Shown here: piece by piece, positions 9,265-54,951 of the stretch
Numbering within the stretch: position 1 is the first letter of the stretch
Layout: the number at the start of each line of letters is the position of its first letter
DNA from: Polytrichum commune
Taxonomy: Eukaryota; Streptophyta; Polytrichopsida; Polytrichales; Polytrichaceae
Assembly: GCA_950295325.1 (NCBI GenBank)
Contig: OX485803.1
Coordinates: 682,001 to 746,000 of the forward strand
Reading direction: 5' to 3'
DNA length: 64,000 nt
Notes under the pieces: generated by a model
The model's database searches: none
The model's input: only the letters and a program-made list of their open reading frames with translations
Told to the model about the DNA's origin: nothing
Made by a program: the position numbers and the translations under genes

Positions 9265-9299
<35 letters not shown>

Positions 9300-9597
9300 T
9301 GGAAGTTTATGTTACTCTCGCATTGGCAACCATCCAACTCTTAAATGATAATGTGTCATAGAGAAGTGGTAGAAAGAATGCATATGAATGATTGCAAATT
9401 CTAAATAAGGCCTTAACAACTCTAAGATCAGTTCTTTGTGATGCTTATGCATGTATATGTTGGTACTTCTCATACTCTCAAGATGTTTCAAGCCACATGG
9501 ATTTCATTATTGGTTATGTTCATGGTTTGTGCAAATTTATTGACCTCTCAACATTTAATTGATAGGTGCCTCCATTCATGCTTGTAGATGTAGTGGC
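4901..9597. other. No gene seen; AT-rich DNA with simple repeats
   Basis: No coding region can be supported. Overlapping ORFs at 5056-5256 and 5211-5531 are the longest open stretch, but I do not recognise them and they end in a homopolymer G tract near 5490-5507. Simple repeats include gatcaa units at about 9021-9046 and a GA tract at about 9267-9296. A 330-bp segment at 6330-6660 is repeated at 18040-18370. Confidence 0.5.
6330..6660 (+). repeat. Interspersed repeat, copy 1 (pairs with 18040-18370)
   Basis: The segment starts gtgtagtgtcacgaacacta and continues through aaatgtaaacctagcatta, catccatgacaata and acaaaatacaata. The same blocks in the same order and orientation lie at 18040-18370. 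I found no terminal inverted repeats or ORF, so the class is unknown. Confidence 0.7.
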
Positions 9598-9602
9598 CAC
9601 CA

Positions 9603-10561
9603 TGTCCCGCACCTCTCCATGAGGAGTGCCCAAAACACCATGGGCACAAGGGGGACCCTGGAGTGACACCCGGGACTTGTGGTGCCATTGGTGAGTGGGC
9701 CCAAGTCATCCTAGTGTGGGTGAGGGCCCCAGGCGTTGGGAACACCTCCCACCCACGGAGATTAGGAGGCACAAGGGTAAGGCCATAAGCTATGCGTAGC
9801 TTATAGCGTGTAGATTCTAGAATGCTCAAGAACACCTCAATCGGAGGTGTGAGCTAGGAGTTATGGCAATTTGAGTGGAGCGCTGTCTCGGGACAGCGTC
9901 CTAGGACAGCAGTGGCCTGGGAGTGGCTCCCAGGACTGCCAAGGTTTAAACATGCATAACTTCCTCAATACTTGCCCAAATGGGGCAAGTGAAGGAGTCC
10001 ATCGACATCCACGTGAAGCGTACATGAATATGGAGTGGTCGTTTGTTAGCATCAAGAATCACATAAGGAAGTTATGATGGTCTGAAGTTGTTGGGGTTTC
10101 TAGGGCCAGCGGCTAAGAGAAAATGTCTACTTGGTCCCAACTTTTGGTAGAGAGGCAAAAGGTTTCTTGACGGTGCTGTAGGGGCCCCGTCTAGAGTCCT
10201 AGAGGCTTATATGGGTGAGGTGGTATGGCCTCACCCACCCGAGCCCGAACGGCACGGCCTCCATGAGCTTTGGCCCAATGTGAGGGTATAGTTGCCTAGT
10301 ATGCTTCGGGTTGTTGTAGTGTTGCTCCGGCAACGCGATGATCAACATAAGATTGAACTTTCATGGATGGAAGTCCACATCTAAGAGTTGGTTACCGATC
10401 AAGGAATGAGTCCCGAAAGCAAAGTAGGAGGATTGGTTCCCCTCCTATGAGCTATAAGGTCCGGGGTAGGAGGAGCTTACCATTAATATGGCGGAATGCG
10501 AAGGGTTAGCGCTCGTGACGCTTGCTAGAAATGAAAATTGGCAAGATTGTAAAGGGGCTAG
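9603..10561 (+). mobile_element. R1 repeat copy A, main part (probable solo LTR)
   Basis: The element begins TGTCCCGCACCTCT and is preceded by the 5-bp sequence cacca (9598-9602). It runs to the insertion point of a T element at 10561/10562. Its missing last bases lie in reverse orientation at 39295-39313, where the element ends in GCGACA followed, on the element strand, by cacca. A TG...CA outline with a 5-bp target-site duplication fits a solo LTR of about 970 bp. Short ORFs inside it are shared with the other R1 copies only as DNA and carry no known domain. Confidence 0.75.
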
Positions 10562-11780
10562 TGTGAGCCCAAAAGGGTGCCCACATTTAGTCTTAGACCC
10601 TTGAAACGTTAGTTGATGCACTTTGAAGTAGCATGTTACTTCACAAAAATATAAAAAGAGTGAAATGTTAGTCTTAGAAGTACCATGTTGTAAGAGGCTA
10701 GGATGTGAGTTGTTATTGTGTTTTTACCTTCGGAAGGATTTGAGTGAATGAGGATAGGTAAGGAGAACTTGGATTGAGTAGTTAGTGAGTAGGCTAGTAC
10801 AAATGGATGGAGACAACCAAAGTGACTCAAGAGGCAAGTGCATTCGAATTGGGATGAATGGAGGATCACATGGAGCGCACAAGTGGACCACCTCATCATG
10901 GCCACTTAATGGGGAAGGCCCAAGGAAGAATGCAAGGTGGAGGATAAGCAAATTCTCAAAGCACCAATCAAATCACGAGTTAAGCATCGTGGTTTGAATT
11001 AAGTGGTGAGCGACGATTTGGGAAAGTAAGGGGAGAAAGTTATGGCGGCGGAAAGCGAAGGAGGCTAAGTTTGGGTTGAAGCATCCCAAGTTTGGTAAAG
11101 TGTGGTAGGTAGAAAGCCAAGGCTAGTTAAATGTTCGAATTAGGATCCTTGTTGATCATTTGAGGGAGGAAGGCTTAGAAGATAGGATTGGCGCCTACTA
11201 AGTAGGAGGAAATCTCAAGGGCTTATCGTGAGCCTTGAGGGTGCTCACCCCCTCAAGCTTACTATATAATCCCTCATTCTTCCCTCACTCATCCTCTCTT
11301 TCCTTTGTGCTCCAAGGCACCCCACGAGTTATAAGTGTGGGTGTGGGAAGCCATATTGGAGCACATGTGTGTGCTTAGTTTTTAGTTTGAGAGCCAAGGC
11401 TTGTTAGCCTTGAAGAGGGCTTGACCTCTTGGTAGAATTAGTGTTGACGTGAAGGATTTTAAAGTTAATTCATGATTCCAATTTGTGGTACTTTAAGTTC
11501 ATGTTTTGAATACACGTGGTTGCAAGTTCCATGTTTAAGAGTTGAGCACTTGATGTTGTGATGAGTGCAAAAATATACTTGTGTGGATTAGTTAGTCTTA
11601 GTGAAGTTAGGAAATTCTCTCTCCCCCTCTCCTCTCTAGGATTTTAGGATTTTAGGATTAGAGAAGAATTGTGTGATTAGAAAGGGGTTGTTAGTAGAAT
11701 TAGGGAAATTAGGTAGGAAGATTAGTTAAGGGCTTGAATAATTAGTGAGGTAGTTGGGGATTACAACTACAAAGTTGTGG

Positions 11781-12013
11781 GTTTATGAAGGAGCTGGGTT
11801 TATGAAGGAGCTGGGTTTGTTTAGTTAGAAAGTAAAGAGCTGGGTTTATGAAGGAGCTGGGTTTGTTTAGTTAGAAAGTAAAGAGCTGGGTTTATGAAGG
11901 ACCTGGGTTTGTTTAGTTAGAAGCTAAGAAGCTGGGTTTATGAAGGAGCTGGGTTTATGAAGGAGCTAGGTTTATGTAATTAGAAAGTAAAGAGATGGGT
12001 TCATGAAGGAGCT
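11781..12013 (+). repeat. Tandem repeat inside T copy A
   Basis: Units built on gagctgggtttatgaag, alternating with a longer form that adds gtttagttagaaagtaaa, repeat about nine times. Copy B keeps a shorter version (39453-39595, reverse strand). Copies C and D hold unrelated tandem repeats in the matching region. Confidence 0.85.
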
Positions 12014-12292
12014 TAGTAGATAGCCTACCTAATTAGCTCATAGACAAGTGGTTAGTTACATTATGCTAGTTAGTGTTATGTGTGGCTTTCACAAATAAAT
12101 GTATTTGAGATTGACTATAGAAGATAGTGTTTTTTTAACACTTGCATCCTCTCTTTAAAAATAAACCACGTGCACAACTTAATGGAGAATGTGGAGCACT
12201 CTCGCGATGGCAAGACAAAGGAAGCAAAGACCAAAGGTGCGAGGGAGAGATTGACATAAGTCACATAAGTATTTCGTAATACTTAAAGGCTT

Positions 12293-12505
12293 ATGTACGG
12301 TATGGAGACACCAAGTGAGACCTCTTATAGTAGCGATACGGAATACACAAGTGATAGTTCAAGTGGTAGTATAGAGTCAACGGCACGGACTCCATTTAGG
12401 AGAGGGATATCCTTAAGGGCTTGTGTAGCTAAAGCAGCCGGATGGACGTTAGAAGCAAACAAAGACAAAATAGCACCCGAGCATAAGGAGGTTAAAATAA
12501 CATAG
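12293..12505 (+). CDS. Small ORF in T repeat copy A, conserved core ISLRACVAKAAGWTLE
   Basis: This 70-residue ORF opens at ATG 12293, with a second ATG at 12302. It has a Ser/Thr/Glu-rich start, then the core ISLRACVAKAAGWTLE, then a charged tail ending in KIT and stop. The T copy D ORF (15819-15986, minus) shares the core and the tail pattern K-D-x3-PE-x-KE-x-K-x-T-stop. T copy C (42298-42462) shares the core. Between A and C, 11 of the 16 core codons differ and all differences are synonymous. Between A and D, 10 are synonymous and one is Arg/Lys. That pattern argues for selection on the peptide. A separate in-frame ATG at 12182 starts a run (MENVEHSRDGKTKEAKTKGAR) like the start of the copy C ORF, but here it runs into a stop. 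The function is unknown; a gag leader lying in the LTR is possible. Confidence 0.6.
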   Translation: MYGMETPSETSYSSDTEYTSDSSSGSIESTARTPFRRGISLRACVAKAAGWTLEANKDKIAPEHKEVKIT

Positions 12506-12708
12506 TTAACTTGTGCATTCTCCACATACGTATTGAAATCGTACATTGAGTTGTTAAAAGTGAAATTCCAGTTAAATCCAAGACCACTTGAAGGGTGAAC
12601 CTTGTACTATGGACTCATCCAAGTCCAAATCCAATACCGCGGAGGAATGTGAGCCCAAACCCACTACTCGGACTACGGACGCTCAAGGGTGGGGGGTTTG
12701 GCCTCACA

Positions 12709-13218
12709 ATGGGCGCTTGATAGAATCCTAGATCATACAACGAAGTTATGAATGCTTGAAGTTGCTAGGGGTTTCTAGTCCCACTGGCTAAGGGAAAATT
12801 ATCTATTTGGCCCCAACCCTTAGGACAGAGACAAAATGTTACTTGATGATGGGGTAGGGGCCCTGCCCAAAATCCTAGAGGCTTATATGGGTAAGACGGT
12901 GTTGTTGAGCAACCCCACCCCAAATATACTTGGCAACTATACTCCAGGTTGTTATAATGTTGCTCTGGCAATGTGATGATCAACTCAAACTTGGATTTTT
13001 ATGGATGGAAGTCCACATTTAACCATTAGCTATCTACTAAGGGGAGAGTCCCGAATGCATGCATAAGAGGGTTGGTTAGCAAGCTATAAGCTTGGAGGTC
13101 CGCAGTATGGGGAGTTAATCATGTATGTGTGTGGGATGTGCAAGTTAGCGCTCATGACACTTAAAAGAGTTACTAAGCAGTCAAAATAACTTAAGGGGCG
13201 CTAGCAAGAATTGCAACA
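12709..13218 (+). mobile_element. R1 repeat copy B, 3' half
   Basis: It aligns with 10060-10561 of R1 copy A, through aggcttatatggg, gttgctctggcaa, catggatggaagtccacat-like and ttagcgctcatgac blocks, and ends in gctagcaagaattgcaaca. Its 5' half is not upstream. It lies in reverse orientation at 40813-40944 and 42585-42912, beyond T copy B. This half supplies the collinear evidence for the inversion. Confidence 0.75.
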
Positions 13219-13715
13219 AGACCTTCATAACTTCGTCATTTGATCTCTGTTTCCATTGAGCGACCAATCCATCATCATTTATTCTTCACACTAATGTCAA
13301 TCAACTTACTACCTCCATGCGGATTAACATTCATGAAGTTATGGATGTTCTAGCCGTGGCAATCTTTCAAGCCATTACTAGGTCACTATTGTCCCATCAT
13401 AAGTCCCTTGGAATGTTGGGCGATGTCCCTATGTAGCCCCCGCCCTCAAATTACCATATCTCCTAGCTCATATCTCCGATTGGGGAGTTATGAAGCATTC
13501 TAGAATCCGGACACCATAATCTACTCAATGCTCATGGCCTTATCTTCGCAAGTCCTACTCTCCATGGGTGGAAGGTGTTTTTCAATGCCCCGGGCCCCCA
13601 TCCACACTAGGATCACTTGGCCCCTCTCACCTATAGTGCCGCAAGTAACGAGCGTCACTCCGGGGTCCCCCTTGTGCCCATGATATTGCAGGCATTCCTT
13701 ATAAAAAGATGTGCA
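13219..13715 (-). mobile_element. R1 repeat copy C, 5' half only
   Basis: In reverse complement it follows R1 from the gcacatct start block through cctaggatcacttgg-like and gggagttatgaagcattcta blocks to gaagttatgaaggtc, where it stops about halfway. It abuts R1 copy B tail-on at 13218 and a LINE reverse transcriptase at 13716. I could not find matching target-site duplications. Confidence 0.6.
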
Positions 13716-15250
13716 ACAAGCATAGAGTGTGGTTTTGATACTATTTGGTGAGGTATTAAAATGGTATCCTAGTTGATCTTTCTCTAGCCATGTAAGCAGG
13801 GGTTTTAAGATTATGATGAATAGATATGGGCTTAAGGTGCTTTCTTGGATGGTGCCCTGGCTAATTTGGATGGTCGTTGTTGTTGTGAAGTGTGCACCCA
13901 ATAATGAGGTGGTCGGTTTTGCATAGATATTATAGACTAGTTTGATGGTGTCTAGTGGTTTTCAAGGTCTTCCATTATGGACAATAATCGAGGGTGATCT
14001 ATGGGGCCATATGCGTCCTGAAAGTATATGTAGGTAATGTAAATATCTTTGGCTATAAATTTGGCGTATTCTAAAGCGGCGATGATTGCCTGGATTTGTT
14101 TAGCCATATTTCTCATAGGTTTAAAGCCATCCTAATTGTGGTAAAGGATTGTATGTTTTTTCACTTAATGTAATGAGGAGGGAGGTTAACATGCTTGTAA
14201 AGAGCTCGTAGATGGTGCATATGAGGGCTATGGGTCTGTAGTTTGTGATAATTGTAGGGTTCTTTATTATGGAGGAGTATGGTGTTGCTATGCTTCCATT
14301 CATTGGGTTTTGTTTTTTGGTGATAACATTGTAAGAAAAATTGGTACGTCATGTCCTGAAAGTTATTTGGTAGTGCTTTTAGGCATCACATGGGATACCA
14401 TCCAGTTCGAGGGGTTTGCCTTTGAATAGGTTGTCTTGTCTAGGCATGTAGGTTAGATGATTGTAGTGAATGATGTGGTTAGTAAAGGAAGTTTGGAGGA
14501 AATTATTTTCTCTAGTATGAAACCATCTTTGGACTGCTATGGGTATAGGCGGATAACTCACATACATTCCGGCAAGTGTTTGAACATAGGGAGCTTATCT
14601 TATGAATGACTCTTTTTGTGGGAAGTGAATGACATTTGCGATGGCCTCATGATGTTTGGCTAAGTTTCCATAATTATCTAATATGAGGCAATCGAGTGGT
14701 ATGGAATTTCGATGGTTGAAAATTATTTTATGAATTATTTTTGGTTTTTTACCGAGTTAGAGATTCATAATTTGTTATTGATCTCTTACAATTTTGGGAG
14801 GTTTCTGCAGTGGTTATACTTTATGCTGCGGCCTTGGCACCCTTGGTTGTGTTTGCAATGTTGTTTAGTTAATTTTGTTTGGCATGTGAGTCATTGATGG
14901 TAGGTGGTGGAATTGTGTTGGGATGGTTCTTTACTTCTTGACTTTTAGGCTTGAGGTACTAATTCTATGGAACTGGGAAACTAGTAGACATGATGGCATT
15001 TTTTATTAGGTGATAGGAGTTGAGACATTTTTTCATTGTTTTTGGAGTTTGCGAGAGGTTATGTTTTTTGCATATGTCTCTTTGTCTTGATTGATGTGGT
15101 CCCTTGTGTTGATTGTGTTGAATTCTCATCCATCTTGTCGTGTTTTGTATGGCTATGGCTTCATCAATTGATATTGTAACTGGAACAAGCATTTATGGGT
15201 TTTGCACGTCACTGTGGTGGCCATTAGTTGTTGTTCGCATACTCCATGTG
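13716..15250 (-). pseudogene. Decayed LINE reverse transcriptase
   Basis: Reading on the minus strand, several frames together spell a LINE ORF2. A linker is followed by KPLELDGIP, a region ending in NEWK, then NYRPIALICTIYELFTSMLT (RT block 2) and LIAALEYAKF with a degraded motif A (YITYIYFQDAYG). ISQGTIQESTLSPYLFIIIL follows (motif B), then LGYHFNTS and LYA. The similarity breaks exactly inside the catalytic YADD motif, where R1 copy C begins. Stops and frame changes are frequent. The family is close to the minus-strand LINE at 47849-54924, which has TIYKFFTSSLTSIL at the same place. The start near 15250 is uncertain. Confidence 0.75.
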
Positions 15251-15818
15251 TTTGTATATTTATGCAGCTACAAAATATATAGACTATCTTGTGTAGGGCA
15301 TGTGGGAACTTTGTAATTGTGACTTTTAGACATGTATTGATAGCCTTGAAGCATGACATTAAGGCCTCTAAGTATTCCATAATTTTGAAACCCTTAAATT
15401 GTGTCAATAAACATAAATTTTATATTCTTGTATTTTTAATTATTTGTATGACATAAACATGCAATTCATTGTTGTTGTTAATATATTACTATGTTTCTTT
15501 TGTACTAGACATGATTATGATTTCAAACCATAAACCCTGATCCTTTAGAGAATGTTTTTTCTCCTTGTTTTCTACATGTACTTCTTGTGAGGCTTGTCAT
15601 CAATAATACACTTTAAGGACTTTGGGAATTGGGATATTATTTACATAAAAGCAATATAAGGTAGCATTAACTATATGTCACCAAAAAGCCTCCACCCTTC
15701 AATTTCGTCCTAGCCCGAATGGAGAAGTTTATAATGACATGTAGAGATTTCTCTCTTTGTAACACAATGTATGATTCCAATCTATCGTTGGAATATATAC
15801 AACTTAACCAAGTCTATA

Positions 15819-15986
15819 CTATGTTTTCTTACACTCCTTAATCTCGGGTAATGTCACATCCTTGTACTTCTCTAAAGTCCACCCGGCCGCTTTGGCCACG
15901 CATGCCTTCAAAGATATCCTTCTTGTGAAGCGAGTCATTGCCGTCGACTCCACACTACTACATGAGTTCTCGTTTATTGATTCCAT
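15819..15986 (-). CDS. Small ORF in T repeat copy D, core ISLKACVAKAAGWTLE
   Basis: The ORF is 55 residues from ATG at 15986 to the stop at 15819. It starts MESINENSCSSVEST, then has TRR before the core ISLKACVAKAAGWTLE, and ends KYKDVTLPEIKECKKT. The copy A ORF has a matching SIEST element before the core and a matching C-terminal pattern, including the last Thr and stop. Core codons differ from copy A by ten synonymous changes and one conservative change. No signal peptide, membrane segment or known domain is visible. It may be the remains of a longer LTR-encoded protein; no product can be named. Confidence 0.55.
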   Translation of the reverse strand: MESINENSCSSVESTAMTRFTRRISLKACVAKAAGWTLEKYKDVTLPEIKECKKT

Positions 15987-16149
15987 GAATTACACAAGTT
16001 TAAGTATTGATAAATATTTGTCACTTATTGTAGTTTTCTCCTCACGCTTGAACCACTATATTGGTTTAATGAACTAATGGTTATCCCTAATGGAACCAAG
16101 CAAACTTCCTTTGTTCCCCTAGACTTTACTAGCTAATAGTATAACTTTC

Positions 16150-16750
16150 CCATTACTTCTCGGAATGTCCTGAAATTTTATCTGTAACTAGGGAGACAAA
16201 GCAAAAAACATCTCACCAATTTGTGAGCCTATCCCATTTTCTGTCCGACAGTTATGACCATTTTAGTGTGTCAGTCTACCCAGATTTCAGAATGTCATAA
16301 CTTCCTCTCACAGGCTCCAAAGAACTTCAAATTTTGGGAGCAATCACAAAAACTAATTGTTTATGACCCCCTGAAACTTCAAACTATTTTCATTTTCTGC
16401 CAAAACGTTATGGCCTTTTTAGTCTGCAATTCTTGAAAACACTTCAGAATGATATATCTCCTTCTCATCTATTTGGAATGACTTGAAATTTGTACCACAA
16501 CTAGGAAACCTAAGAACAAAGCATCCCTAAAAATTTCATACGTTTCCAAGCCTCTATCTAGAAGTTATGCCCATTTCAGCTCGAAAATGTAGGCGAAGTT
16601 CAGAATGTCATAACTGCTGCTCTAGTACTCCAAACATCCTCAGATTTTGACCATGTTCATATAAACAAGTTTTTTACTAACCCTCTAGTTTTCACCGAAG
16701 TATCTTCTTCTGCTCGGAAGTTATGTCCCTTACAACCTAGACTACTCAAG
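16150..16750. repeat. 155-165-bp tandem repeat inside T copy D
   Basis: Four diverged units begin with variants of ttcagaatgtcataacttc, near 16160, 16279, 16443 and 16599. Each also has a gaagttatgcccattt-like block. The array sits in the part of the element where copies A and C hold different tandem repeats. Confidence 0.65.
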
Positions 16751-17354
16751 AAATACCCAAGAAATATGAACTCAAGTACTACAACTTGAAGCCATAAAAT
16801 ATCATAAAATTATTCACACCAAAACTAATTCTAACAAGAGGTCAAGCCCTCTTCAAGGCCAACTAGCCTTGGCTTTCCAACTAAAAATTAAGCACACACA
16901 TGTGCTCCAATCTGGCTTCCAACACACCCACACTTATAACACGTGGGGTGCCTTGGAGCACGAAGGGAAGAGAGGATGAGTGAGGGAAGAATGAAGGATT
17001 ATATAGTGAGTTTGAGGGGGTGAGCACCCTCAAGGCTCACGATAAGCCCTCGAGATCTCCTCCTACTTTGTAGGCTCTAATCCTATCTCCTAAGCCTTCC
17101 TCCCTCAAATGATCAACAAGGATCCTAATTCAAACATTTAACTAACATTGGCTTTCTACCTACCACACTTTACCAAGGTTTGTCCTTCTCCTACTTAAAT
17201 CCACTCCACAAAAGCCTAATGCTTCAAACTAAGCTTTCTTCAAGCTTCATTCTTTTTATATTTTTGTGAATAATCATAAATCACCAAAACACCACTTGTA
17301 ATGTTTTACAAGTGTTAACAACCAATGTGGGCATCAATTTGGCCTCACACTATA

Positions 17355-19806
17355 TCATTCAAAGATTTATAATTACCCATAAGGTGCCAATAGAAACAAC
17401 AATTTACCATTATTTTGAAATTTTGCATGCCATATAATCCATTATAATAGGTAACAATTCCCCTTCCCCCCCCCTCCAAAAAAAAACACAATGTTATTGT
17501 ATGTATATACATATTCTAAGAGGAAGTAACGTCCACGAGCCATGAGTAGATCATACTAGACCTCATTGTAGGCTCTTGATCAATCACAAAATGTCAAGAA
17601 TAGTTCATTTTTAAAGAGTCATCTTGACCAACAAGGTGACCTTGATAACTACATCCACATATTACAATAGTATCATGACGGTTTCAACGATAACTGTATT
17701 ATTTGGAGATTTGTAGAAATTTTTGAAAAACATTGTCGATAAAAAAACAACAAATTTGAAAAGGAAAAGTGAGAACCTAGTAGAATATTCCACTTGTCGA
17801 AGTGGAACCATAAGAATAAGTAAACTATTCAACAACGACCTTGGGATTAAAATAATTTGGAAATATTAGGGTTGTTTGGAGGTCCCTTCTCATCTAATCA
17901 CTGCCTTTAAGAACTTCAATAGCATCTTCAGTCCATCTGACCCCGATCGTTGTTGCAGAAGAACTGTGAGTGCATGTCAAAAACCTCAAACATGACTCCT
18001 TGTGGTAGTCCCCCTCCTCATATCTAGGTTTGGCAATGGCACCCTTGTAGTGTCACCAACACTAAATGTAAACCTAACATTAACTGTCATTTCTTGTAAA
18101 AAATTTGGGCATCATATATGTATAATGTTGCAAATACTATTGCTTACTATGTAAATTTTCATCCAAATTTGAGTCATCCAAATTTCAATCATCCATGACA
18201 ATATTTCATTACAAAAATGTAAGGATGCAAGAGATACCAAACAAAAAGTGGATGAACTAGAAATAAGTTGAGATGACAATACTTGTAAACTCATTTATAA
18301 TAAGTGTGATTAGAAAAGTTACCACAGAGACATAAAATACCATATGACACTAAATACAATGTTTACAGTAGTTCTGGAGGTTGTCAAACCTAGTAACAAG
18401 GGGGCCTGGTTTATCATTAACTTTGATTAACAATGTACAAAGAAATAACTAAAAATGTTGACATGGGTAAAAGTGTCATCAAGTTCAAGACATTGCAAGC
18501 CAATATATGCCATGTCTTTGTTGCCAACTCTTGTGTGCTTCCATAACTTAAACGTCACATCTATTCAACACATTTGTAATATTCATATTGCAAGCCTGCT
18601 ATTATTAATTTATGGCGTGTATCCACAAGAGTTGTCACATAGCAAGCACGACCTCTATCCTTCAACCTTCAAACTTGTTGGATTGTCATAAGATGTTATG
18701 AACATAAGATTGCTCCGGTCAAATAGAAAGAACCCCAACTTTGATATGAGACAAGTAGTAAGGATGTGATATAGATAGTTAATTTTACGGTTTGCACGAG
18801 AAATGTATAATATGAGGTTGCACGAGGTGAACTATTTATGTGCTTAGACTTTTCCGGCTTAGTGTATACATCCTAACCTCCTTGATGTCAACCTCCATAA
18901 TGTCACTCCCTCATATCTTGAAACCCTAGGGATTGGACATGCTCAATAGGAAATGTCCCTCTTTGTTGTCACATTTTCTTTCCATACATCACATGTTTTG
19001 ATATTAAAATTATCCACCAAAGAATTCAAACCACATGCATCATCATTGTCAATATTATAATGTTGACTTTCTGTCATTCCTAATTGTCACATGCTACAAT
19101 GATCCTCTGTTAACACTACATGCCTCCTTCATATCCCGTGCACTTTGCTTGCCACAACCATGATATTAGGGAGGTTTGAGTGTGGTAGCATTTGAGGCTG
19201 AGGTGCTTCTAGATTCTAGAATCATGTGGGATGTGTACAATTCACCACTTGTGAGTAAAGTTTGTACAAAAGTGTCACCACATCGTTACGTCGTCGACTA
19301 ACATGCCAAATGATGACCAAATGGATACATTGTCAAACCCCTAGCAAGCCTCATCGGGTTAAAGTTATGTAGGGGATCGGTACCATGGGAGTGTGTACTT
19401 TTCATCCCCAATGTACTTTTACAATTCATATGACGATGTGTTTGTTTTTCTTTTTTCTCAATGTACATGTTAGGCTTTGTGGAAATGATTAGTGGTAGAT
19501 AAATGTGTCCCTAATGTGTTCTTACTTTCTTTTCTATGATTCTTCCAAGTGTTAAATAAGATATTTCGATTCAAACTTTCATTTAAGTTTTGAAGTCTAC
19601 TTTCATTCAATTTGGATAGGTTAGTTTTATGAAGTGGAAGATTTGCAAGCAATTTTAAAGATAGAATTCTACATTTTGCTTTTGCATCATAGAAGGGGAT
19701 GTTACATCTTTGTTGTTGTTTGGTCCCTGGTCTCAAGTGATGTGCATGGGATTTGCATCTGTCTTGTCTTACAAACTGCGCTGTCTCTCTCCAGGTGCAA
19801 GAAAGC
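17355..19806. other. Intergenic region upstream of the receptor kinase gene
   Basis: No coding region is supported apart from the repeat at 18040-18370. A mixed poly-C/poly-A tract lies at about 17460-17490. The promoter and 5' untranslated region of the gene at 19807 should be at the right end, but I saw no convincing TATA box at a fixed distance. Confidence 0.4.
18040..18370 (+). repeat. Interspersed repeat, copy 2 (pairs with 6330-6660)
   Basis: It starts cttgtagtgtcaccaacact and carries the same ordered blocks as 6330-6660, including catccatgacaatat and catatgacactaaatacaat. It has small insertions, among them a second catccaaattt unit. Confidence 0.7.
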
Positions 19807-34870
<15,064 letters not shown>

Positions 34871-35714
34871 GTCAATGGCTTCATGATGCCAATGTACAGA
34901 AATTCCACCTGGACGTTGGAATTTTTTGATGTGTGGAAATTTGCGTCATTCGGTTTAGGGGTTAGGGAAAATAACTCAACAACTCCATAAACTTAGGTTG
35001 TGCATGTAACTTGGACTCGAGGTTTAGGGTTTGGGCATTCCAAGAGACAATGTCTAATGTACAATACTAGCTTGAACCCGTATCATCCTAGCCTGTTGTA
35101 GTGCATCTGTGCATATAAATTATGATGTTTTAATGTGGTCCTATCATGGTCCAAGCCAACCCCCGTGGATGCCACCTTGTTGTTTCCATCCACTATTCTA
35201 GTATGAAGATGCATCATCCCAATATGTTACACCCATGCATATGAATAAATGTCTCACACCATTCATCCATTTTTAATGGTTGGCTTGTTTTGAAAGGCTC
35301 AACGCCGATGGCCTCATCACCCATGCCCCTCAAGCTTTTCAAGTTTCATGTAGTCACAATAGCTTGGGCTTGGCTTATTACAATTTTTCATATGACTAAT
35401 GAACCAGTGAGGTTTGAAGATCATTATGTTTTGCAGGTGTTTCCATACATTTATGAAGTGACATTTGTTTCACTTTTACAACAACTCTTTTGCTTTGACT
35501 CCATATGTGAAACCCATAAGTCCGTGATACATAGAATGGAGTACGATCACCCTACATTCAGGTCATATTAAGCGTCAAGTACTCATTTATGGCCCATTAA
35601 CCTCAATATTTATGGCACGTGTCAGCATGGGTTTGCCAAGATTTTCTCCAAATTGAATATAGGTAGAGAAGTGGTCAGTCAGACCTAAACAAATGGGAAT
35701 TGATAAATAATAAC
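34871..35714. other. Intergenic region downstream of the receptor kinase gene
   Basis: No gene is supported. The short ORF at 35290-35571 has no recognisable motif. The 3' untranslated region of the kinase gene should lie at the left; I could not pick a poly(A) signal with confidence. Confidence 0.4.
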
Positions 35715-37090
35715 ATATTTGAGTGAGAAGTAGGCAATTCATCAAGCAGTAGCAAAAAACAATTATAAATGCATAATTAATGAAGAATTAGAAAATTAAT
35801 ATACTCAAAATGAATAATCAAAATTTATATCAGAAACCTAACCAACTCCTATCATAGCCCCCACCTCTATATGAAGCCCATCCCCTAGAATGAATTCGTC
35901 TTAACAAAGAAACATTTAGCCTATAGAATATCTCTTTGGAAGGAAAGAAAGACAGATCCGATGTTGCCATTGGTGTGAATTGTGGTGTTGCTTCGTTTTT
36001 AGGTGAGTTAAATCTATATGTAATCTCAAAACGGGTAATAGGATAATGAGAGGGCCCCAACAATTATTGCGTCTTTCGAAAGGTGAACACCTTAAACGGG
36101 AGCGGACAAGCTGGTTGGCACCTAGCTCCCCCAGGGACAAACCCCTCGGTTCCCACATGGTTGGTTGAAAATATTTGGTTCACGCAGCTACCCCCGAGTG
36201 CTATGATTGCGTAGATCATAGGTGGTAGGGTGCACCAGAAATCAAGTGCTACGAAGGTTGCCCATCCAACTCAATACTGTTCCGGCCTTAAGCGGCTTAG
36301 TCTTGAAGTTCCCATGGGATCGAGGTTAAGGCCTTGGGTTTAAGCCGCCATACATCTCTTTGTATTTTCCATGCTTGCAATGGATGGGTCTACGTAGACA
36401 TCACAAAGCACTAGGCACAGTGCATTAGCTACATGATGTGCAAATAGTTTCTAACTTTTGTATATTAACATAAGAGACCATAAAACAAACACTAATGTCA
36501 AGAGTGGTCCAAGTCTTCTAATATGTAGCATGTCCCTCCATTTTGTATTGCAACATTGGTCCCACATTGAGGAAAATAGTCCATTATAAGCTTACGAAAA
36601 TGGACCTTATGTGACTTTAAAAAAAAATTAATCATACATTTATATGTAAGTGGTATATGGCAAGGATTGTAGTCACGAACAAACAATCGAAAGAAATATG
36701 TGGTGTTACCAAATTGTATATAGATATAGATTAGATATATTGAACATGTTATCTTCAATATATTTTCTCCCCATGCTAGGATGCCAGTAAGTTATGCATG
36801 TTTTGTGAGTATTTAGGGTAGAGGGTGCTTAAACCAAAACTTTAAGCACTTGCACATAATATGGCTATGTGCTTGATTAAAATTTTTGTATATTAGCCTT
36901 TGGGCTCAACATAGGTATAAAGAACAAAAAAAAGTCTCAAAAAAATATTTGATGAATATTTAAAGTCAAAACCATTAGATGCTTTAAAATAACCCCAGGC
37001 CCCGTGTATGACAACCTTGCATATGGTGAGGACCCCCACCTTCATTGCCTAGAAGCAACACAACATAGGTGGATATTAGAACCAAGCTAG
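35715..37090 (-). repeat. 5S-bearing interspersed repeat, copy 1 (pairs with 62500-64000)
   Basis: In reverse complement this segment follows 62500-64000 from ggcaatgaaggtgggggtcc, through a block coding QCGTN-AIQNGGTCYILEDLDHS in one frame, a 5S-like segment and cctcggttcccacatggttg-like DNA, to gatgaattgcctacttctcac. In the second copy the segment follows directly on a LINE reverse-transcriptase remnant, so this copy could be a 5'-truncated LINE tail. A Cassandra-type TRIM element is the other option because of the 5S segment. I did not find TG...CA ends or a second LTR. Confidence 0.7.
36227..36321 (-). pseudogene. 5S rRNA-derived segment
   Basis: On the minus strand it reads gatcccatgggaactt, then a taagccgctt block, then gaacagtattgagttggatg, then ggcaacctt, ending ggtgcaccct. 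These correspond in order to the GATCCCATCAGAACT, TTAAGC, AGTACTAGGATGGGTGACCT and TTGCACCC parts of plant 5S rRNA, including the intermediate element and C box of the internal promoter. It is too diverged to be a working 5S gene. Confidence 0.7.
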
Positions 37091-39289
37091 ATCAAAGCCC
37101 AACTAGTAACGGTGCACAAAGCAACATGGCCACCTCCATGATCCCACTTGGTTCAGTTGCAAAAGCGTATGTGAACCATCCGAACAGTTCACGAGTCATG
37201 GTAAAAACAATTAGTACTGTATTTTGTGATTTTTTGAATATCAACCTACCACCACCACCTTCTCCATTGTACATGGATGATCCAATATTTGCACACATGA
37301 TGAAGTGGAATGCAATGTGGTTTAAGTGCATTCCACAACTACACCTTGAAGCTTTTCATAATCAAGTCCGCAAATATCATACTTAACTATGTGTAAATAT
37401 GCATGGTTACTATATTATACTTAATCAAGTAAATTGTACACACTTGGAGCAAAGGCTAAATAAGATACCTGTGAAAAAAAATCTTTGTTTTTATTGTGCC
37501 CCGCGAAAAGCTATGCTCTGTGGACGATGTCAAGAATACGTGATTGCTTGATGTCATTTTGATCCACACGGTGGTCTTCCTTCATAGCTATGTCAACATA
37601 TTACCATGGCTCATGCTCAAGGGTCGACATTGGTTTAACAAAAGAGGAAGATCCCAAGGGCCCAGGGATGTGAAGTTTGTCATGTCCGCTCAGGTTTACA
37701 ACCAAGGTTGCAACATTCCTCACATGTGAGTACGGTACCTGCATGGCCAATTGGGCACTTAAGTGCCGAATAATTATTTTAATTATTGCAAGGTCATTAT
37801 GCAGTTACAACAATATTTTAATCATTATTCGACACCCATGAACAGTATTAACGGAAAATTCGGCATTATAACTGTAGTTTGTTATTTTTGTTACATTCAT
37901 CCCTCCTCTTAACGCTTTAAGCTCAAAAATACTGTGATTTTTGTAGACAATATGTTTTCATGAAATAATTCATAGTCTGAGGATGGGGTTGTATGTATGA
38001 ACAATTTCAATGCGAAAATTTAGTATAGAGGTTTATATGTGTAGAATAGTGTGATTTCATCTATTTTGGCAATTCATCCATGAATTTCATCAACTTTGGG
38101 CAGTGAGGCTTGTATTTATCACATATTTCGGCACCTCACAAAATGACTTATTTTTTGCTGAACTGGTCATGCAGGTGCGGTAATATTTTGTTATTCAAAA
38201 GCATTGGGAACAAATGACAACATAAAACACTAAAACCTTGTAACAATGAAACATGGGAGTGCAATCATGTGAGCAATGAGCAATGAGTGGTAATTTTTGA
38301 GTGGGGAAGGAGGGAAAATATTTGTAATTACACCCAATAGTATCTTATACTTGTGGTATTTTGCCACAAATTGTAAAAATTATGTTTATACTAATATGAA
38401 TGGAAATGAATTTAAATATTTTTGTTAGTTAAACATTCAATCCTTCAAAAATTTCAAGCACATTCTAAATGTTGAGTGTCATTTAGACTATTTTTTTAGA
38501 ACTCACATAGGTTTGAGAAATGAATTGATGGCGACATAGTGGAAGTAGCAAATTCAAATTCAGGGCATATATGGAAGTGTAAGAGAAATTGCTCACTTGA
38601 ATCAATGACCATTGATTGTGGTAAATTTCAAAGGAAGCCCAAGATCCAAACATTGCTACACAATTTGAAGTTATTATCATTTTGATTTAAGAGGAATTAT
38701 CACAACAAAGTTTTTTTAACACATGGGGGAGATGGGTATAAGGCAAAAATGTCAAATACACACACAACACAATGGCCATTTTGTGATTAATGAAAATGCA
38801 AAATCAAAGTCATACCACACATACTTGCACAAACACGTCCGTAACAATAAATTGGTCATAATTAGCCTAATCGTGAAGATTAATGCACTTATCCGCCTCG
38901 TCATATATGAATGGGTGATAAACAATTTGTTGATACCTACGGTGTGAGACTAACGTTGTTAATAGTGCATCTGGAGGCTAAACCTTAAAGCTAGGAGGAA
39001 GTATCACATCAAATTCTCTACATAATGGGATTGTAAATGTTAGACTTCAAGTGGGCACTTCTTAAGCTACGGATGTCAAACAATCAAGAAGATTTGGAGA
39101 AATGGTTGTATTTAGGTGCTCAATTGATTTTTTCCTTGCCACCTTCTTAACATGCTTTTTGTTTGATTTCACTAAGACTACATAAGCCATAGTTCCATAG
39201 TTCCATTTGAACTAGGAATTAGTATTACATCATGCAATGATGATAGGATGACATCAAACAATGAAGAATCTTCCTTGTATGCGACTAGA
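37091..39289. other. No gene seen; contains a possible TIR element
   Basis: An ORF at 37069-37386 (105 residues, with a PPPPPSP run) and one at 38723-38947 have no recognisable features. The only structure I can support is a possible inverted-repeat element at 37734-38179. Confidence 0.45.
37734..38179. mobile_element. Possible small DNA transposon with imperfect terminal inverted repeats
   Basis: The left end GGTACCTGCATGGCCAATTG pairs with the right end, whose reverse complement is CGCACCTGCATGACCAGTTC. The inside is AT-rich and has further tgccgaata/ttcggca inverted blocks. I could not define a target-site duplication, so the superfamily stays open. Confidence 0.4.
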
Positions 39290-39294
39290 TGGTG

Positions 39295-39313
39295 TGTCGC
39301 AACCCTTGCTAGC
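39295..39313 (-). mobile_element. R1 repeat copy A, detached 3' end
   Basis: On the minus strand this reads gctagcaagggttgcgaca, which continues R1 copy A after 10561 (compare gctagcaagaattgcaaca in copy B). It is followed by cacca on that strand (39294-39290), the same 5-bp sequence found before R1 copy A at 9598-9602. The element is thus cut in two by the inversion. Confidence 0.75.
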
Positions 39314-40812
39314 TGTGAGGCCAAACCCCCCACCCTTAAGCGTCCGTAGTCCGAGTAGTGGGTTTGGGCTCACATTCCTCCGCGGTATTGGATTTGGACT
39401 TGGATGAGTCCATAGTGCAAGGTTCACCCTTCAAGTGGTCTTGGATTTAACTAGCTCCTTCATAAACTCAGGTCCTTCATAAACCCAGCTCTTTACTTTC
39501 TAACTAAACAAACCCAGCTCCTTCATAAACCCAGCTCTTTACTTTCTGACTAAACAAACCCAGCTCCTTCATAAACCCAGCTCCTTCATGAACCCACAAC
39601 TTTGTAGTTGTAATCCCCAACTACCTCACTAATTATTCAAGCCCTTAACTAATCTTCCTACCTAATTTCCCTAATTCTACTAACAACCCCTTTCTAATCA
39701 CACAATTCTTCTCTAATCCTAAAATCCTAAAATCCTAGAGAGGAGAGGGGGAGAGAGAATTTCCTAACTTCACTAAGACTAACTAATCCACACAAGTATA
39801 TTTTTGCACTCATCACAACATCAAGTGCTCAACTCTTAAACATGGAACTTGCAACCACGTGTATTCAAAACATGAACTTAAAGTACCACAAATTGGAATC
39901 ATGAATTAACTTTAAAATCCTTCACGTCAACACTAATTCTACCAAGAGGTCAAGCCCTCTTCAAGGCTAACAAGCCTTGGCTCTCAAACTAAAAACTAAG
40001 CACACACATGTGCTCCAATATGGCTTCCCACACCCACACTTATAACTCGTGGGGTGCCTTGGAGCACAAAGGAAAGAGAGGATGAGTGAGGGAAGAATGA
40101 GGGATTATATAGTAAGCTTGAGGGGGTGAGCACCCTCAAGGCTCACGATAAGCCCTTGAGATTTCCTCCTACTTAGTAGGCGCCAATCCTATCTTCTAAG
40201 CCTTCCTCCCTCAAATGATCAACAAGGATCCTAATTCGAACATTTAACTAGCCTTGGCTTTCTACCTACCACACTTTACCAAACTTGGGATGCTTCAACC
40301 CAAACTTAGCCTCCTTCGCTTTCCGCCGCCATAACTTTCTCCCCTTACTTTCCCAAATCGTCGCTCACCACTTAATTCAAACCACGATGCTTAACTCGTG
40401 ATTTGATTGGTGCTTTGAGAATTTGCTTATCCTCCACCTTGCATTCTTCCTTGGGCCTTCCCCATTAAGTGGCCATGATGAGGTGGTCCACTTGTGCGCT
40501 CCATGTGATCCTCCATTCATCCCAATTCGAATGCACTTGCCTCTTGAGTCACTTTGGTTGTCTCCATCCATTTGTACTAGCCTACTCACTAACTACTCAA
40601 TCCAAGTTCTCCTTACCTATCCTCATTCACTCAAATCCTTCCGAAGGTAAAAACACAATAACAACTCACATCCTAGCCTCTTACAACATGGTACTTCTAA
40701 GACTAACATTTCACTCTTTTTATATTTTTGTGAAGTAACATGCTACTTCAAAGTGCATCAACTAACGTTTCAAGGGTCTAAGACTAAATGTGGGCACCCT
40801 TTTGGGCTCACA
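39314..40812 (-). mobile_element. T repeat copy B (LTR-like, 1499 bp)
   Basis: It runs from TGTGAGGCCAAACCCCCC to CCTTTTGGGCTCACA on the plus strand and is nearly identical to T copy A in the opposite orientation. The flanks on the plus strand are ctagc (39309-39313) and cccat (40813-40817), which are not duplicates. They are the reverse complements of the flanks of copy A, in swapped order. Relative to copy A it has lost about 550 bp, including the small ORF; the deletion joins a gaaggagctag block to gttaaatcc. It also has fewer tandem units. It lies in R1 copy B. Confidence 0.85.
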
Positions 40813-40944
40813 CCCATTCCATCGACATCTAATCTTGGCTTACTAAATGTCGATAGACTCCTCATTTTTCCCATTTGGGCAAATACTACGGAAGTTATGA
40901 TTGTTCTAACCTTGGCAATCTCGGGCCCCACTCTCATGTCACTG
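40813..40944 (-). mobile_element. R1 repeat copy B, middle part
   Basis: On the minus strand, tttgcccaaatggg and gtctatcgacat blocks match 9970-10010 of R1 copy A. It is bounded by T copy B on one side and T copy C on the other. Without the inversion it would join 12709-13218 through the 5-bp sequence atggg. Confidence 0.75.
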
Positions 40945-41644
40945 TGTGAGCCCAAAATGGTGCCCACATGTGGTGATTAACTCTTCGGAACCAAATTTAG
41001 TTTGACTTTGAGGTGTTATGATTATTTACAAAACATAAAAAGAGTGAAGTGTGGTGTGGATTTAAGTTTAGGCATTAAGTGGTGTTGTGTGATTATTTCA
41101 AGGTTGATTTCAATAAGAGGATGCCTTGATTGTGTGAGTAGGGGGTAAGGTGAGGCAAGGTGAGCTCCGCGGGTTAAATGCCCACTTTTGGATCCACTTT
41201 GTTAGTTTAGGAAGAAGGAAGCTTGGTGGATGGGGATTAGTCCCTACTTTGGAGGAGAGGGTTAAAGGATTGTGATTGGGGGATGCTAATCCTCTCACCC
41301 TATCCTCACCTCTCTCTCCCTCTCTCCCTCTCTCCCTCTTTGCTACTTAAGGTGTTTTTCTCTCATTTTCCTCTCTCTCCATCAAGCGCTCTCAAGGGAG
41401 CAAGTCCTTAAGAGCTTGAGCCACGTGTGTAGGTTATTAGTTTTAGTGAAGTTAATTAGTTAAGCTCTATCTCTCACTCTCACACTTGGGGTAAGCTATT
41501 AGGATTACACATAATGTTAGGGATTAGGTAGTTAAACATTTAGAATTAGGAGGTTGGGATTGGTTGGTTAGTTGAAAGATTATCTTGAGTTTAGTGGAAG
41601 TCTTAATTAGTGGTGTGGGGTGGCTAGTTTAATAGTTAGAGAAG

Positions 41645-42030
41645 CAGTTGGGAGCTGGTTTACCCAGATTGGGCTACATTCGGCAGCAGAGCTGCAAGCA
41701 GCTGGGAGTTGGTTTACCCCAGACTGGGCTACATTCGGCAGCAGCTGGGAGCTGGTTTACCCCAGACTGGGCTACATTCGGCAGCAGAGCTGCAAGCAAC
41801 TGGGAGTTGGTTTACCCCAGACTGGGCTACATTCGGCAGCAGAGCTGCAAGCAGCTGGGAGCTGGTTTACCCCAACTGGGCTACATTCGGCAGCAGAGCT
41901 GCAAGCAGTTGGGAGCTGGTTTACCCAGACTGGGCTACATTCGGCAGCAGAGCTGCAAGCAGCTGGGAGTTGGTTACCTAGACTGGTTACTTTCGGCAGC
42001 AGAGCTGCAAGCAGCCGGGAGGGCTTGGTT
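41645..42030 (+). repeat. About 55-bp tandem repeat inside T copy C
   Basis: Seven copies of a unit containing gctacattcggcagcagagc and agctggtttacccagactg lie head to tail, one of them shortened to about 42 bp. The three overlapping ORFs here (WELVYP, IRQQSCKQLG and similar) are artefacts of the repeat. Confidence 0.9.
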
Positions 42031-42297
42031 ATTAACACATACACATGAAGCTACAGTGGGTAGCTAATTAGTGGAAGTAAGCAAGGTGGCATTACTCATT
42101 AACTAATGGGTGCCAGTTGTAAGTAAGATAGCCTAGTAGGTAGACAACTTAATTAGCTCATAGATAAGTAGCTAGTCACATTAGGCTTGCTTGGCATGTG
42201 TGGCCTTCACTAGCAAAGTGTACTTACTATTGGTTATAGAGAATAGCGTTTTGCAACGCTTGCATCCTCTATATTAAATAAATCAAGTGCACAAGTG

Positions 42298-42462
42298 ATG
42301 GAGAATGTTAACAACTCTAGCGATGGCCAGACAAAGGAAGTCAAGACTAAGGGTGCAAGGGGAATTTCCTTGAGGGCATGTGTGGCCAAAGCCGCGGGTT
42401 GGACTCTTGAGAAATCAAACTCTACCATAAGCCAAGAGGCTAACATTAATAAAGCACGGTGA
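42298..42462 (+). CDS. Small ORF in T repeat copy C, core ISLRACVAKAAGWTLE
   Basis: The 54-residue ORF starts with ATG at 42298 and stops at 42462. It begins MENVNNSSDGQTKEVKTKGAR, matches the run that starts at ATG 12182 in copy A, and goes straight on into GISLRACVAKAAGWTLE. The Ser/Thr-rich stretch found before the core in copies A and D is absent, and the tail (KSNSTISQEANINKAR) differs. Eleven of the 16 core codons differ from copy A and every change is synonymous. It has no membrane segment or known domain. Confidence 0.6.
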   Translation: MENVNNSSDGQTKEVKTKGARGISLRACVAKAAGWTLEKSNSTISQEANINKAR

Positions 42463-42584
42463 ATTAAGATGACATGAATGCCTTGGGATGTGAAGGGAGC
42501 ATTTTCAATACACAAACAATACATGTGATTCTCAAAATCATCACCCGGACTAGGACGCTTAAGGGTGGTGGGTTTGGCCTCACA

Positions 42585-42912
42585 CACTGCTATCCCACCA
42601 TAATGCCGAGCATTGTCCCTAGATAGCCCCCCTTCAAATTGCCATATCTCCTAGCTCATATTTCCAATTGGGGAGTTTTTGAGCATTTTAGAATCCGGAC
42701 GGCATAAGCTATTGAATGCTCATAGCATTCTCCTCGTGACTCCTACTCTCCGTGGGTGGAAGGCGTTCTCAGCGCCCAAGGCCCCCACCCACACTAGGAT
42801 CACTTGGATCCTTTCACCTATGATGCCCCAAGTCTTGTGTGTCACTTCGGGATCCCCCCCTGTGCCCATGGCGTTGCAGGTATTAGTCATAGAGAGGTGC
42901 ATAAGACGAACA
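42585..42912 (-). mobile_element. R1 repeat copy B, 5' part
   Basis: On the minus strand it opens TGTTCGTCTTATGCACCTCT and follows R1 copy A from 9603 (cctgcaacgccatgggcac, aagtgatcctagtgtgggtg, gccatatctcc reversed). The flank is a T run on the plus strand, which does not match agacc at the other end of R1 copy B (13219-13223). Confidence 0.7.
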
Positions 42913-45790
42913 TTTTTTACTTCCTCTTTATTATGTTCAAAATTAATTAAGTTTAAAGTATTTGACTTCTTTGGTGATAACTGTTATTTTTAAGCAGAAT
43001 ACTAACTCATAAAATTGGTCAGATGTATGGACTTCTTCTAGTGCCTCCAAGTAATGATCTTCTAATTCCTATCATTGTTCAATTGCTTCACTTTCATCTG
43101 TATGTCATAATCATATGTACGTCACATTTATTCGTACATCACCTTCATCTATATATTTCATTCATCCCAAACCTATTATATCATCCCTTATGGAATCATT
43201 TTTCATCCAACCTAAAACATTATGGCTTCCTCTAAAATTCATACATCACTACCGCGATGGGGGGTTTGTTCAAGATATCTAACTTGCACTAAATTTCACA
43301 TTGGCCACCCTTGTTTGGATTGGCCAAGTAATGAGAGGGTTGGAGGTCAAGCCACCTTCCGAAGAATAGTATTCGGATAGGTGACCGTTTGCCACCCTCC
43401 AAGCCAACACTCTAATCAAAACAAAGCTAGAGCTTTAGCTCTAGTTTTAGTCTCTTATTTAATCTCATATTTAATATCCAACTTTATATCTAATTTTATC
43501 TTCAACTACCTATCTCTACCTCATGCCTTTAAGCCGTAATTGCTGCAAAATCAGAGAAGAGTTTAAGGTTAGAAAACTAATGTGACCAAAAGATTATGTA
43601 AACAAAGACTTATATAACCAACAACGATATAACCTAGAACTGCAACTAGTTGTAGCCTTCACTTTAGTGACAACACGTCCGCATGCAGTTCACTCCAACA
43701 TGAATCCATACAACAATAGCCTAACATGGCTTAGAAATTCTTTTATTCAACATTGATATGGTTTATAACCCATTTTGTTTAGCATTCATATTATTATTTT
43801 TCTAAGAATTTAACGCATCTATCTACATGGAAAGGGGGGAAAGAGAGAGCATCCTAACCGCAAGAAAAATGAGAGTGAACCCGTGCACTAATCTTCGCGG
43901 AACTACCCCCTTCCAACCACAAAGCCTTACCGGCCATAGATCTAGCCACGCCTACATCTAACAGTTAGCCTCTACGGCTGACTTCACCTAGCTATCCTTC
44001 TCTAAACTCCTAAATCCAACGGTCTACATCCGCCACCCTTTTGATCCAACAACCTTCATTTGCCTTGACGTCATCCGCTTGATGATTTATTCCTTCGACG
44101 TTGTCCTCCGCTCATACCTTCATCCATGCAACGCTTCATCCACTCGACGTCATCCTCCGCTTATGCCTTCATCCGCTTAATGCCGTGCAAGTCTTTATAT
44201 ATTAACTAATTGTCTCAACAAATGCTAACTAACATGTATTTGTTTAATTTCTAAGAACCAACTTCCTTTCTTACTTGATTGTGAGTTTAAATTCGAACCG
44301 CGAGCGGGTTTGGATGGCTTACAACTTCTTAGATATTGTGAGATTGTTCACATCATTTTAACTTAATAACAATCAATTACATTGCAAGTAATTGAAGACA
44401 TACTTATTATTGAAATGTTTTGGTTCTTAATTACATATCACAATATGGAATAGCTTTCTTTATGTTAAGAGACTTATGGTAATGAAAAGCAAATATGGTA
44501 AAATATGTGAGAGGGAAGCGGTAGAGTTATGATGTTTCTATAACAATTACATACTACACTCTTTCTTACTCTCTCTCTCATTATCTTCTTCTCTTCCTTT
44601 TAATGATTGCCTCCGTATCATTCGCACATGTGGTTTATTAATCTTACAAGAATCTCTCAATATCAAGGTTCCCTTCCTTGCTTTAGCAATTTTATAATCA
44701 AATTTCTCACCTTAAAGTATTTGCTTCCAATCATGCATCTATTCTCACCTCATGTGCGTATCTATAATCAATCCTTATACAATTTACTTCTCTTTCACTT
44801 ATACAAATATTCTCACCTCATGTGAGTTTCTATACATAGCACGCTTCAAGTAATAAGATGTCGCTTGATCATAACTTCTTGACTCAATAGCGTCTATGCT
44901 AACAATTACTTTGCCTCTACCTTGAGAAGCTATGGAGAAAGTTTGAGCTTGAAGCTCTTTACATTCAAAATGGTAAAGGTACAAAGGCCCTGGCTTTTGT
45001 AGCCTATCTCTCGTGAATAACGTGTGCGTACTCTAATCCTAATTCTATATCTAGTGAGAGATGGCGCCTAGCATGTGCCTCTCTCCTAAAATGCAATATC
45101 TTTTTTTCTTCTTGAAGAATGCCCACTAAAATCTCAATTTGGGAGTACATATCCTTCATCCTCAAAATATGGTAGATTGTAATCTAAAATAAACCTATGC
45201 ATTATGTAGATGTGTGGAGATTTATGGGAATTGCCAAGAATTAATTCCTTGGCCTTCATTTTCTTCCACTTCCCATTACTTTTACCTAGGTGGCCTATGA
45301 ATTATCTAAGTGGCCTGAGGATGATTAAAACAAACTAGAGCTTACTAATCCAAGTGTCTTTGAAGTGGCTCACATATCTTAATTGCTTATTAATACCGGG
45401 TGGCTCACTAATTTGAGGTGATCTTTCTAGTTTTAATTGGCTCATTAATTTTTGGGTGTGGCTCACCCACATCTAAGTCCCCCCCCCCCCCGCCCCTTAA
45501 CTAATCCTTGTCATTAATACCCGGCCTTAACCCCATGGCGGCTCTCTCATAAAGTCATGGTTTTCGTACCCTCGTGACTCAATGCCCTCTCACCCTTGGC
45601 CGCTCATGGTGTTTACTCTTTGGCGTTCTTTCTTTGTCCTAAGTCCCCGACTATGTCCTTCGGTGGTCCTTGGTTCTCCTTTTTTGTTCCAGTGTTGCCG
45701 GCTCTATCCTTGGTTATTCTTGGTGCTTCCTATCTGATTCCGTGTTGCTCCACATTATGTTGCTATTGAGTTTGTTTCTATAGCACCCTT
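42913..45790. other. No gene seen; one possible 5S-derived segment
   Basis: No coding region is supported. A C homopolymer of about 12 bases lies near 45479-45490. A segment at 43341-43400 resembles part of 5S rRNA. Dense catccgct/tccgcttatgccttcatcc repeats lie at about 44060-44180. Confidence 0.45.
43341..43400 (+). pseudogene. Possible 5S rRNA-derived segment
   Basis: The order ggtcaagccacc, then gaatagtattcggataggtg, then accg, then gccaccctcc resembles the GTTAAGC, AGTACTAGGATGGGTGACC and TTGCACCC parts of 5S rRNA. The ends ggttggagg and cctccaagcc can pair. The match is shorter and weaker than at 36227-36321. Confidence 0.45.
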
Positions 45791-54924: not shown

Positions 54925-54951
54925 GGGTCCCAGGTTGGTTTCGGTGTCTTT
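54925..54951 (-). other. Degenerate upstream 2A-like motif KDTETNLGP
   Basis: It lies in frame with ORF2, directly before ATG 54924, after SSLHFLIPLS. It is part of a tandem duplication of about 330 bp: the 2A motifs are 327 bp apart and the preceding LKxxRPTGLxQNQKNKIRQ motifs are about 335 bp apart. The key Pro before Gly is Leu, so ribosome skipping is unlikely now. Confidence 0.8.

Follow-up and report, generated by a model that had tools for sequence, protein, structure and literature searches.

The question raised by this locus of Polytrichum commune is why two solo long terminal repeats (LTRs), standing in opposite orientation on either side of a receptor kinase gene, carry flanking 5-mers that fit each other rather than themselves. 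The window, i.e. the whole stretch of 64,000 nucleotides that was analysed, corresponds to C1:682001-746000 on a contig of 77.9 Mb (C1) in an assembly of 407.8 Mb and 64 contigs; tRNA and Rfam searches across the window returned no matches. The left copy, T_A (10562-12708, plus strand), a solo LTR of 2147 bp from a retrotransposon that is probably of the Ty3 type, has GCTAG on its left and ATGGG on its right, and the right copy, T_B (39314-40812, minus strand), a solo LTR of a short length variant (1499 bp), has in its own orientation ATGGG in front and GCTAG behind. The sequence-only reading had taken these flanks as target-site duplications (TSDs) exchanged by an inversion of the 26,605 bp in between (12709-39313), and this account holds: every 5-mer stands where it had been placed, and flipping the segment gives both T_A and T_B perfect 5-bp duplications. 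Homologous copies in opposite orientation, T_A (+) and T_B (-), are thus present one at each breakpoint, and each retains both termini. It is very likely that ectopic homologous recombination between these inverted solo LTRs flipped the segment. Besides the exchanged TSDs, the inversion is backed by the repair of two copies of an older repeat (R1) on flipping, by the order found in paralogs with empty T sites, and by the strand of the kinase gene. The cause would then be homologous crossing over and not an error of assembly, as far as the assembled bases allow such a judgement.

The repeats interrupted at the two breakpoints support the flip independently of the T flanks, as had been claimed. 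R1_A, most of an older LTR of another family than T, occupies 9603-10561 on the plus strand and ends in GCTAG; its left TSD, CACCA, lies at 9598-9602 (+), and the mate appears as TGGTG at 39290-39294, where the right TSD and the last 19 bp of R1_A (39290-39313, minus strand) have been carried by the inversion to the opposite end of the segment. On flipping, R1_A therefore gains a CACCA duplication of its own. R1_B is likewise divided, with its 3' half at 12709-13218 (+) separated from the 5' half; the middle of R1_B lies at 40813-40944 (-) and its 5' part at 42585-42912 (-). When the segment is flipped and the T copies are taken out, the halves join collinearly, and R1_A and R1_B align end to end with 676 of 932 ungapped columns identical, the joined R1_B being short by one base at the site of T_C. 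The latter is a diverged LTR nested in R1_B (40945-42584, plus strand), and it served as a control together with T_D (15676-17349, minus strand), a diverged LTR of the T kind; both have the normal duplications ascribed to them (CACTG at 40940-40944 and 42585-42589; CTATA at 15671-15675 and 17350-17354).

The 5' end of T has 943 matches in the genome (29-base pattern with two positions free), and since many copies occur in same-strand pairs about 9.4 kb apart, T is an LTR. The pairs, the TG...CA ends and the 5-bp TSDs are criteria of LTR elements generally, not of Ty3 elements alone. A 2.9-kb piece within one full-length copy encodes in succession a protease, a reverse transcriptase and RNase H, the aspartyl protease match being just below the Pfam cut-off. 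This is the order of Ty3-type elements, in which the integrase follows RNase H, and with the order read through RNase H, T is a young family, probably of Ty3-type retrotransposons. R1 also occurs in pairs elsewhere in the genome, about 6.1-6.3 kb apart, and is another LTR family, older than T.

The order before the inversion can be read from relatives on the same contig, since the locus is part of a local segmental-duplication array on C1. The best relative of R1_A found, L093, lies about 170 kb upstream (C1:521819-523772), and there the sequence of window positions 9094-10561 (95.4%) runs directly into the reverse complement of 39313-38995 (96.9%), with a single GCTAG at the junction and T absent; R1_A is continuous in this paralog and contiguous with the piece that in the window lies at the far end. 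Breakpoint 1 was tested by this one paralog only, and breakpoint 2 by three. In L094 and L096 the reverse complement of about 14.1-12.7 kb, and in L095 that of 13.4-12.7 kb, continues directly into 40813-40944 and 42585-43015 (95-100%); T_B and T_C are absent from all three, and the bases at the empty T_B site are CCCAT in L095 but, with one substitution, GCCAT in L094 and L096. The paralogs thus join the flipped order base to base without T, so that uninverted relatives with single target sites present the ancestral order, and in comparison with them no base has been gained or lost at either junction.

The strands in the array point in the same direction. Where paralog matches to 13.3-15.7, 31.0-34.9 and 37.2-39.3 kb are strong, they are on the opposite strand throughout the array: the region 13300-15676 has five other matches of 94-98%, all five on the minus strand, and the strong matches end at the edge of T_D. 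The right flank outside the inversion (42913-45500) has four other matches on C1 (95-97%, two of them halves of one copy), all on the plus strand. A weak match to the 13300-15676 region (76%, an R1-like stretch) lies on the plus strand at C1:821886. L093 and L094 delimit a single stretch at about C1:521.8-589 kb, which is not one simple unit, as the kinase occurs twice in it and the partial matches form two sets; its strong matches to the inverted segment are all opposite in strand to the window.

The receptor kinase gene (20291-34867, plus strand) has scattered exons, and, in agreement with the sequence-only reading, its kinase exons (31020-33277) lie inside the flipped segment. Two kinase-domain exons were recognised by Pfam (31020-31241 and 32188-32451) and a third just under the cut-off (33026-33277); the likely last exon (34541-34867) matched no kinase model, and a tentative first exon of the LRR type (20291-20533) had an LRRNT_2 match below the cut-off. 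The best PDB matches of the kinase are proteins which we take to be plant receptor kinases. As far as its exons are recognised, the gene was moved whole. Eight copies of its last 3.9 kb were found at C1:403-854 kb among the 40 that were scored of 51 candidates; seven of them are on the minus strand and the window copy alone is on the plus strand. One of the paralogs, at C1:600465-604337, is 99% identical to the reversed copy. The minus strand also carries a further partial copy, at C1:2.58 Mb.

Since the R1 insertions are common to the paralogs read and the insertions of T_A, T_B and T_C are not, the probable sequence of events is R1, then duplication, then T, then inversion. R1_A and R1_B would have inserted first, on either side of the receptor kinase gene, and a segmental duplication would have followed; T_A and T_B would then have inserted in opposite orientation into R1_A and R1_B of one unit of the array, and a crossover between them would have reversed the 26,605 bp in between.

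How unusual exchanged duplications are was judged from a census of 78 T LTRs besides T_A and T_B. It comprises 38 of the best 40 matches to the 5' part of T_A (the other two being T_A and T_B; 40 of 1492 candidates scored) and, from the first 100 of the 943 places, 40 of the 91 that are not among these matches, all on C1. Matching 5-bp TSDs are present in 30 of the 33 other solo LTRs (exceptions L043, L075 and L077) and in 17 of the 20 other full-length pairs (exceptions L073/L074, L017/L018 and L026/L027), which is why exchanged duplications can be called rare among the T elements read; five LTRs of the census were unclassifiable. Not scored for duplications were L017/L018 (3' end not found), L026/L027 (tandem), L033, L034 and L088 (partner LTR outside the sequence read) and L069/L070 (palindrome). 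Of the 51 other elements for which both ends were located, 47 have normal duplications. The flanks of L043 are ATGGC and TAGGC, and a pattern search for its partner found TAGGC before a T start at four places, including one on C4 of the common G type; the 3' end of this candidate was not found within the 1 kb read. A length mismatch alone was rejected as a sign of exchange, as L050 and L049 have 2181 and 1607 bp and matching duplications.

Among the other explanations, the one that survives best is that the ancestral order is that of the real chromosome, the segment having been reversed by the assembler between near-identical inverted LTRs. Both breakpoints fall exactly within inverted repeats with an identity of 99.8% over 1.35 kb, the array at this locus is repetitive, the paralogs read show the other order only, and such an error would leave the same picture in the window and the paralogs. 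It is nevertheless distinctly unlikely, because the repeats of 1.5-2.1 kb are shorter than ordinary long reads (their use is deduced from the contiguity), the contig extends over 78 Mb, and there is no N in 295,874 bases read at 96 loci (partly overlapping, most at LTR edges), nor in the window; the normal duplications of most other T elements also argue against it.

A crossover inside T would be expected to leave T_A and T_B chimeric, and they were therefore compared in alignments of 39 and then 80 LTRs, both copies included. T_A and T_B share 99.78% of their bases over 1350 bp and 98.6% over the final 139 bp; T_B is without about 650 bp of T_A and has 2.6 instead of 3.6 tandem units of 46 bp. 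The first 1215 bp are identical, but this carries little weight, because there is hardly any variation in that part of the family (at most nine differences from T_A and T_B among the 80 aligned LTRs, except for L079 with 67), and also because the first 40 copies were chosen by their likeness to the 5' part of T_A. The 3' part of T_A has six private changes, compared with at most two in the 38 other aligned copies, which is weak evidence because its nearest relative elsewhere is 99% identical. The gap of about 650 bp was considered as unique to T_B and rejected, as L082, which is also 1499 bp long, has the same kind of gap and a normal GGCCG duplication. From the copies in these alignments, the crossover could not be placed within T_A and T_B.

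That the exchange point cannot be placed gives some room for another route to the inversion, by template switching or by end joining at breaks inside the LTRs without homologous crossover. End joining normally leaves a scar, whereas the breakpoints here show neither loss nor gain of bases and both T copies are complete at their termini, which makes such a route very improbable. Transposition of a hybrid element, the other model discussed for the inversion made by the transposon Galileo (PMC2775673), requires a cut-and-paste element, whereas T is an LTR element. The possibility that there was no inversion and that T_A and T_B, as truncated or mutated copies, have flanks alike by chance is practically nil, given that the probability of two reciprocal 5-mer matches arising by chance in a given pair of copies is about 1e-6, that R1 becomes continuous as well, and that L093-L096 refute it.

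Homologous recombination between T_A and T_B being the preferred explanation, it matters that the census contains a second exchanged pair, the only such case among the 51 further elements that were located at both ends. The full-length element L073/L074 (C1:13848598 to about 13859800, plus strand) is flanked by CCGTG and CATAC, and the solo LTR L075 (5' end at C1:13902976, minus strand) by CATAC and CCGTG; this exchange predicts an inversion of about 41 kb, if the flanks are read in the same way as those of T_A and T_B. With the 5' LTR L073 as the reference for phasing L074 and L075, L075 agrees with L073 and L074 differs at the right-hand sites 1586, 1601, a 335-bp block and 2058. Of the left-hand sites, 1358 places L074 with L073, which is the expected grouping, but 1022 places it with L075, which contradicts a single switch; the sites private to L075 (14 and 2139) and to L074 (1385 and 1395) are uninformative. 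The right-hand parts of the LTRs are thus exchanged by four markers and the left-hand parts are equivocal. If site 1022 is set aside as a conversion or a later event, the switch falls at about 1358-1586 and overlaps the tandem tract. A LINE reading frame interrupted at this pair runs on across the site when flipped and then matches over 165 residues at 59% (210 bits), compared with 145 residues (196 bits) in the present order, so that the gain on flipping is modest.

With exchanged pairs of 26.6 kb and about 41 kb now known, it is conceivable, although rather doubtful, that the T family repeatedly makes local inversions of gene size, with crossovers in or near the tandem tract in the middle of the LTR, and turns single units of the kinase array where T is dense. 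The case for such repetition is weakened by the equivocal left-hand sites of the second pair. If the observed rate of exchange held, several further inversions would be expected among the 943 T LTR starts. Exchanged 5-bp duplications among solo LTRs offer a cheap genome-wide test for inversions. Inversions between inverted repeats are usually inferred from a comparison of chromosomes or species. In this genome the derived copy occurs together with uninverted paralogs whose insertion sites are empty, and the signature is present at both ends, which allows the event to be placed in order and verified at the level of single bases. A single reversed unit in a kinase array that is otherwise on one strand is also a natural case for effects of orientation on exchange with neighbours.

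Among the titles and abstract openings listed by the literature searches, none names a plant solo-LTR inversion with exchanged duplications; papers on rearrangements in rice, maize and wheat (for example PMC3060143, PMC2773423 and PMC7156093) were covered at that level, and no priority is claimed. The passages considered from PMC2672092 add nothing on exchanged duplications. Recombination between LTRs in plants is reviewed in PMC7251063, and the present case shares with those described there that it is an ectopic LTR-LTR recombination in a plant; the passages considered concern the removal of elements, whereas here different elements in opposite orientation recombined and reversed the DNA between them, and the word "inversion" is absent from the main text of that paper. 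The closest parallel is inversion 2z3 of Drosophila buzzatii, which was generated by Galileo and, according to PMC2775673, likewise has copies in opposite orientation at both breakpoints, exchanged TSDs, and single target sites in the uninverted arrangement. Galileo is a DNA transposon of the P superfamily with long terminal inverted repeats and 7-bp TSDs, whereas here solo LTRs with 5-bp TSDs are concerned; its ancestral order came from other chromosomes, and here, for an inversion of 26.6 kb, it comes from paralogs in one assembly; and the chimerism of the Galileo copies was shown by 53 variable sites, whereas here it is partly shown, in the second pair only (PMC2775673). Both the mechanism and the signature of exchanged duplications are already known, and the T_A/T_B pair is a well-documented new case of them.

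T insertions are dense around the window, on contig OX485803.1 (C1): 15 of the first 100 listed T LTR starts fall within C1:393745-936180, a 0.54-Mb region that surrounds it, and the next 3 Mb beyond hold none of the same 100. The region has about 10 T elements against 0.6 expected from the remainder of the listed C1 stretch (P ~1e-9, a value that is not blind, as the region was chosen on account of the inversion finding). At C1:403-854 kb there are also at least seven further copies of the receptor kinase, 85-99% identical to window 31020-34900 (best 40 of 51 candidates), and among the matches scored all seven lie on the strand opposite to the window copy, the closest being C1:600465-604337 with 99% identity.

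Elsewhere on C1, a palindromic insertion of two T LTRs arranged tail to tail is found at C1:12621474-12625294 (L069/L070), with 99.66% inverted identity over 3821 bp. Both LTRs are truncated in their 3' parts, each outer end is an LTR 5' end, and GGGGA flanks the palindrome on either outer side. At C1:13976960-13994350 (L076-L078), a minus-strand LTR lies within a full-length T copy, and the 391 bp after this LTR match exactly the host sequence past that copy's 3' end, making the locus an inverted duplication of the element end together with its host flank. The solo T LTR at C1:46300128 (L043) has the unlike flanks ATGGC and TAGGC, and a pattern search for TAGGC before a T start found no exchange partner.

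The window also carries a LINE (non-LTR retrotransposon) at about 47.8-59.6 kb, with minus-strand motifs and endonuclease and RNase H matches. Its 2A-like motif reads GDIETNPGP, with a degenerate version, DTETNLGP, lying upstream (54598-54621 and 54925-54948, minus strand), and RPTGLAQ-like motifs recur in the same frames. Odon 2013 reportedly already describes the occurrence of 2A in non-LTR elements.
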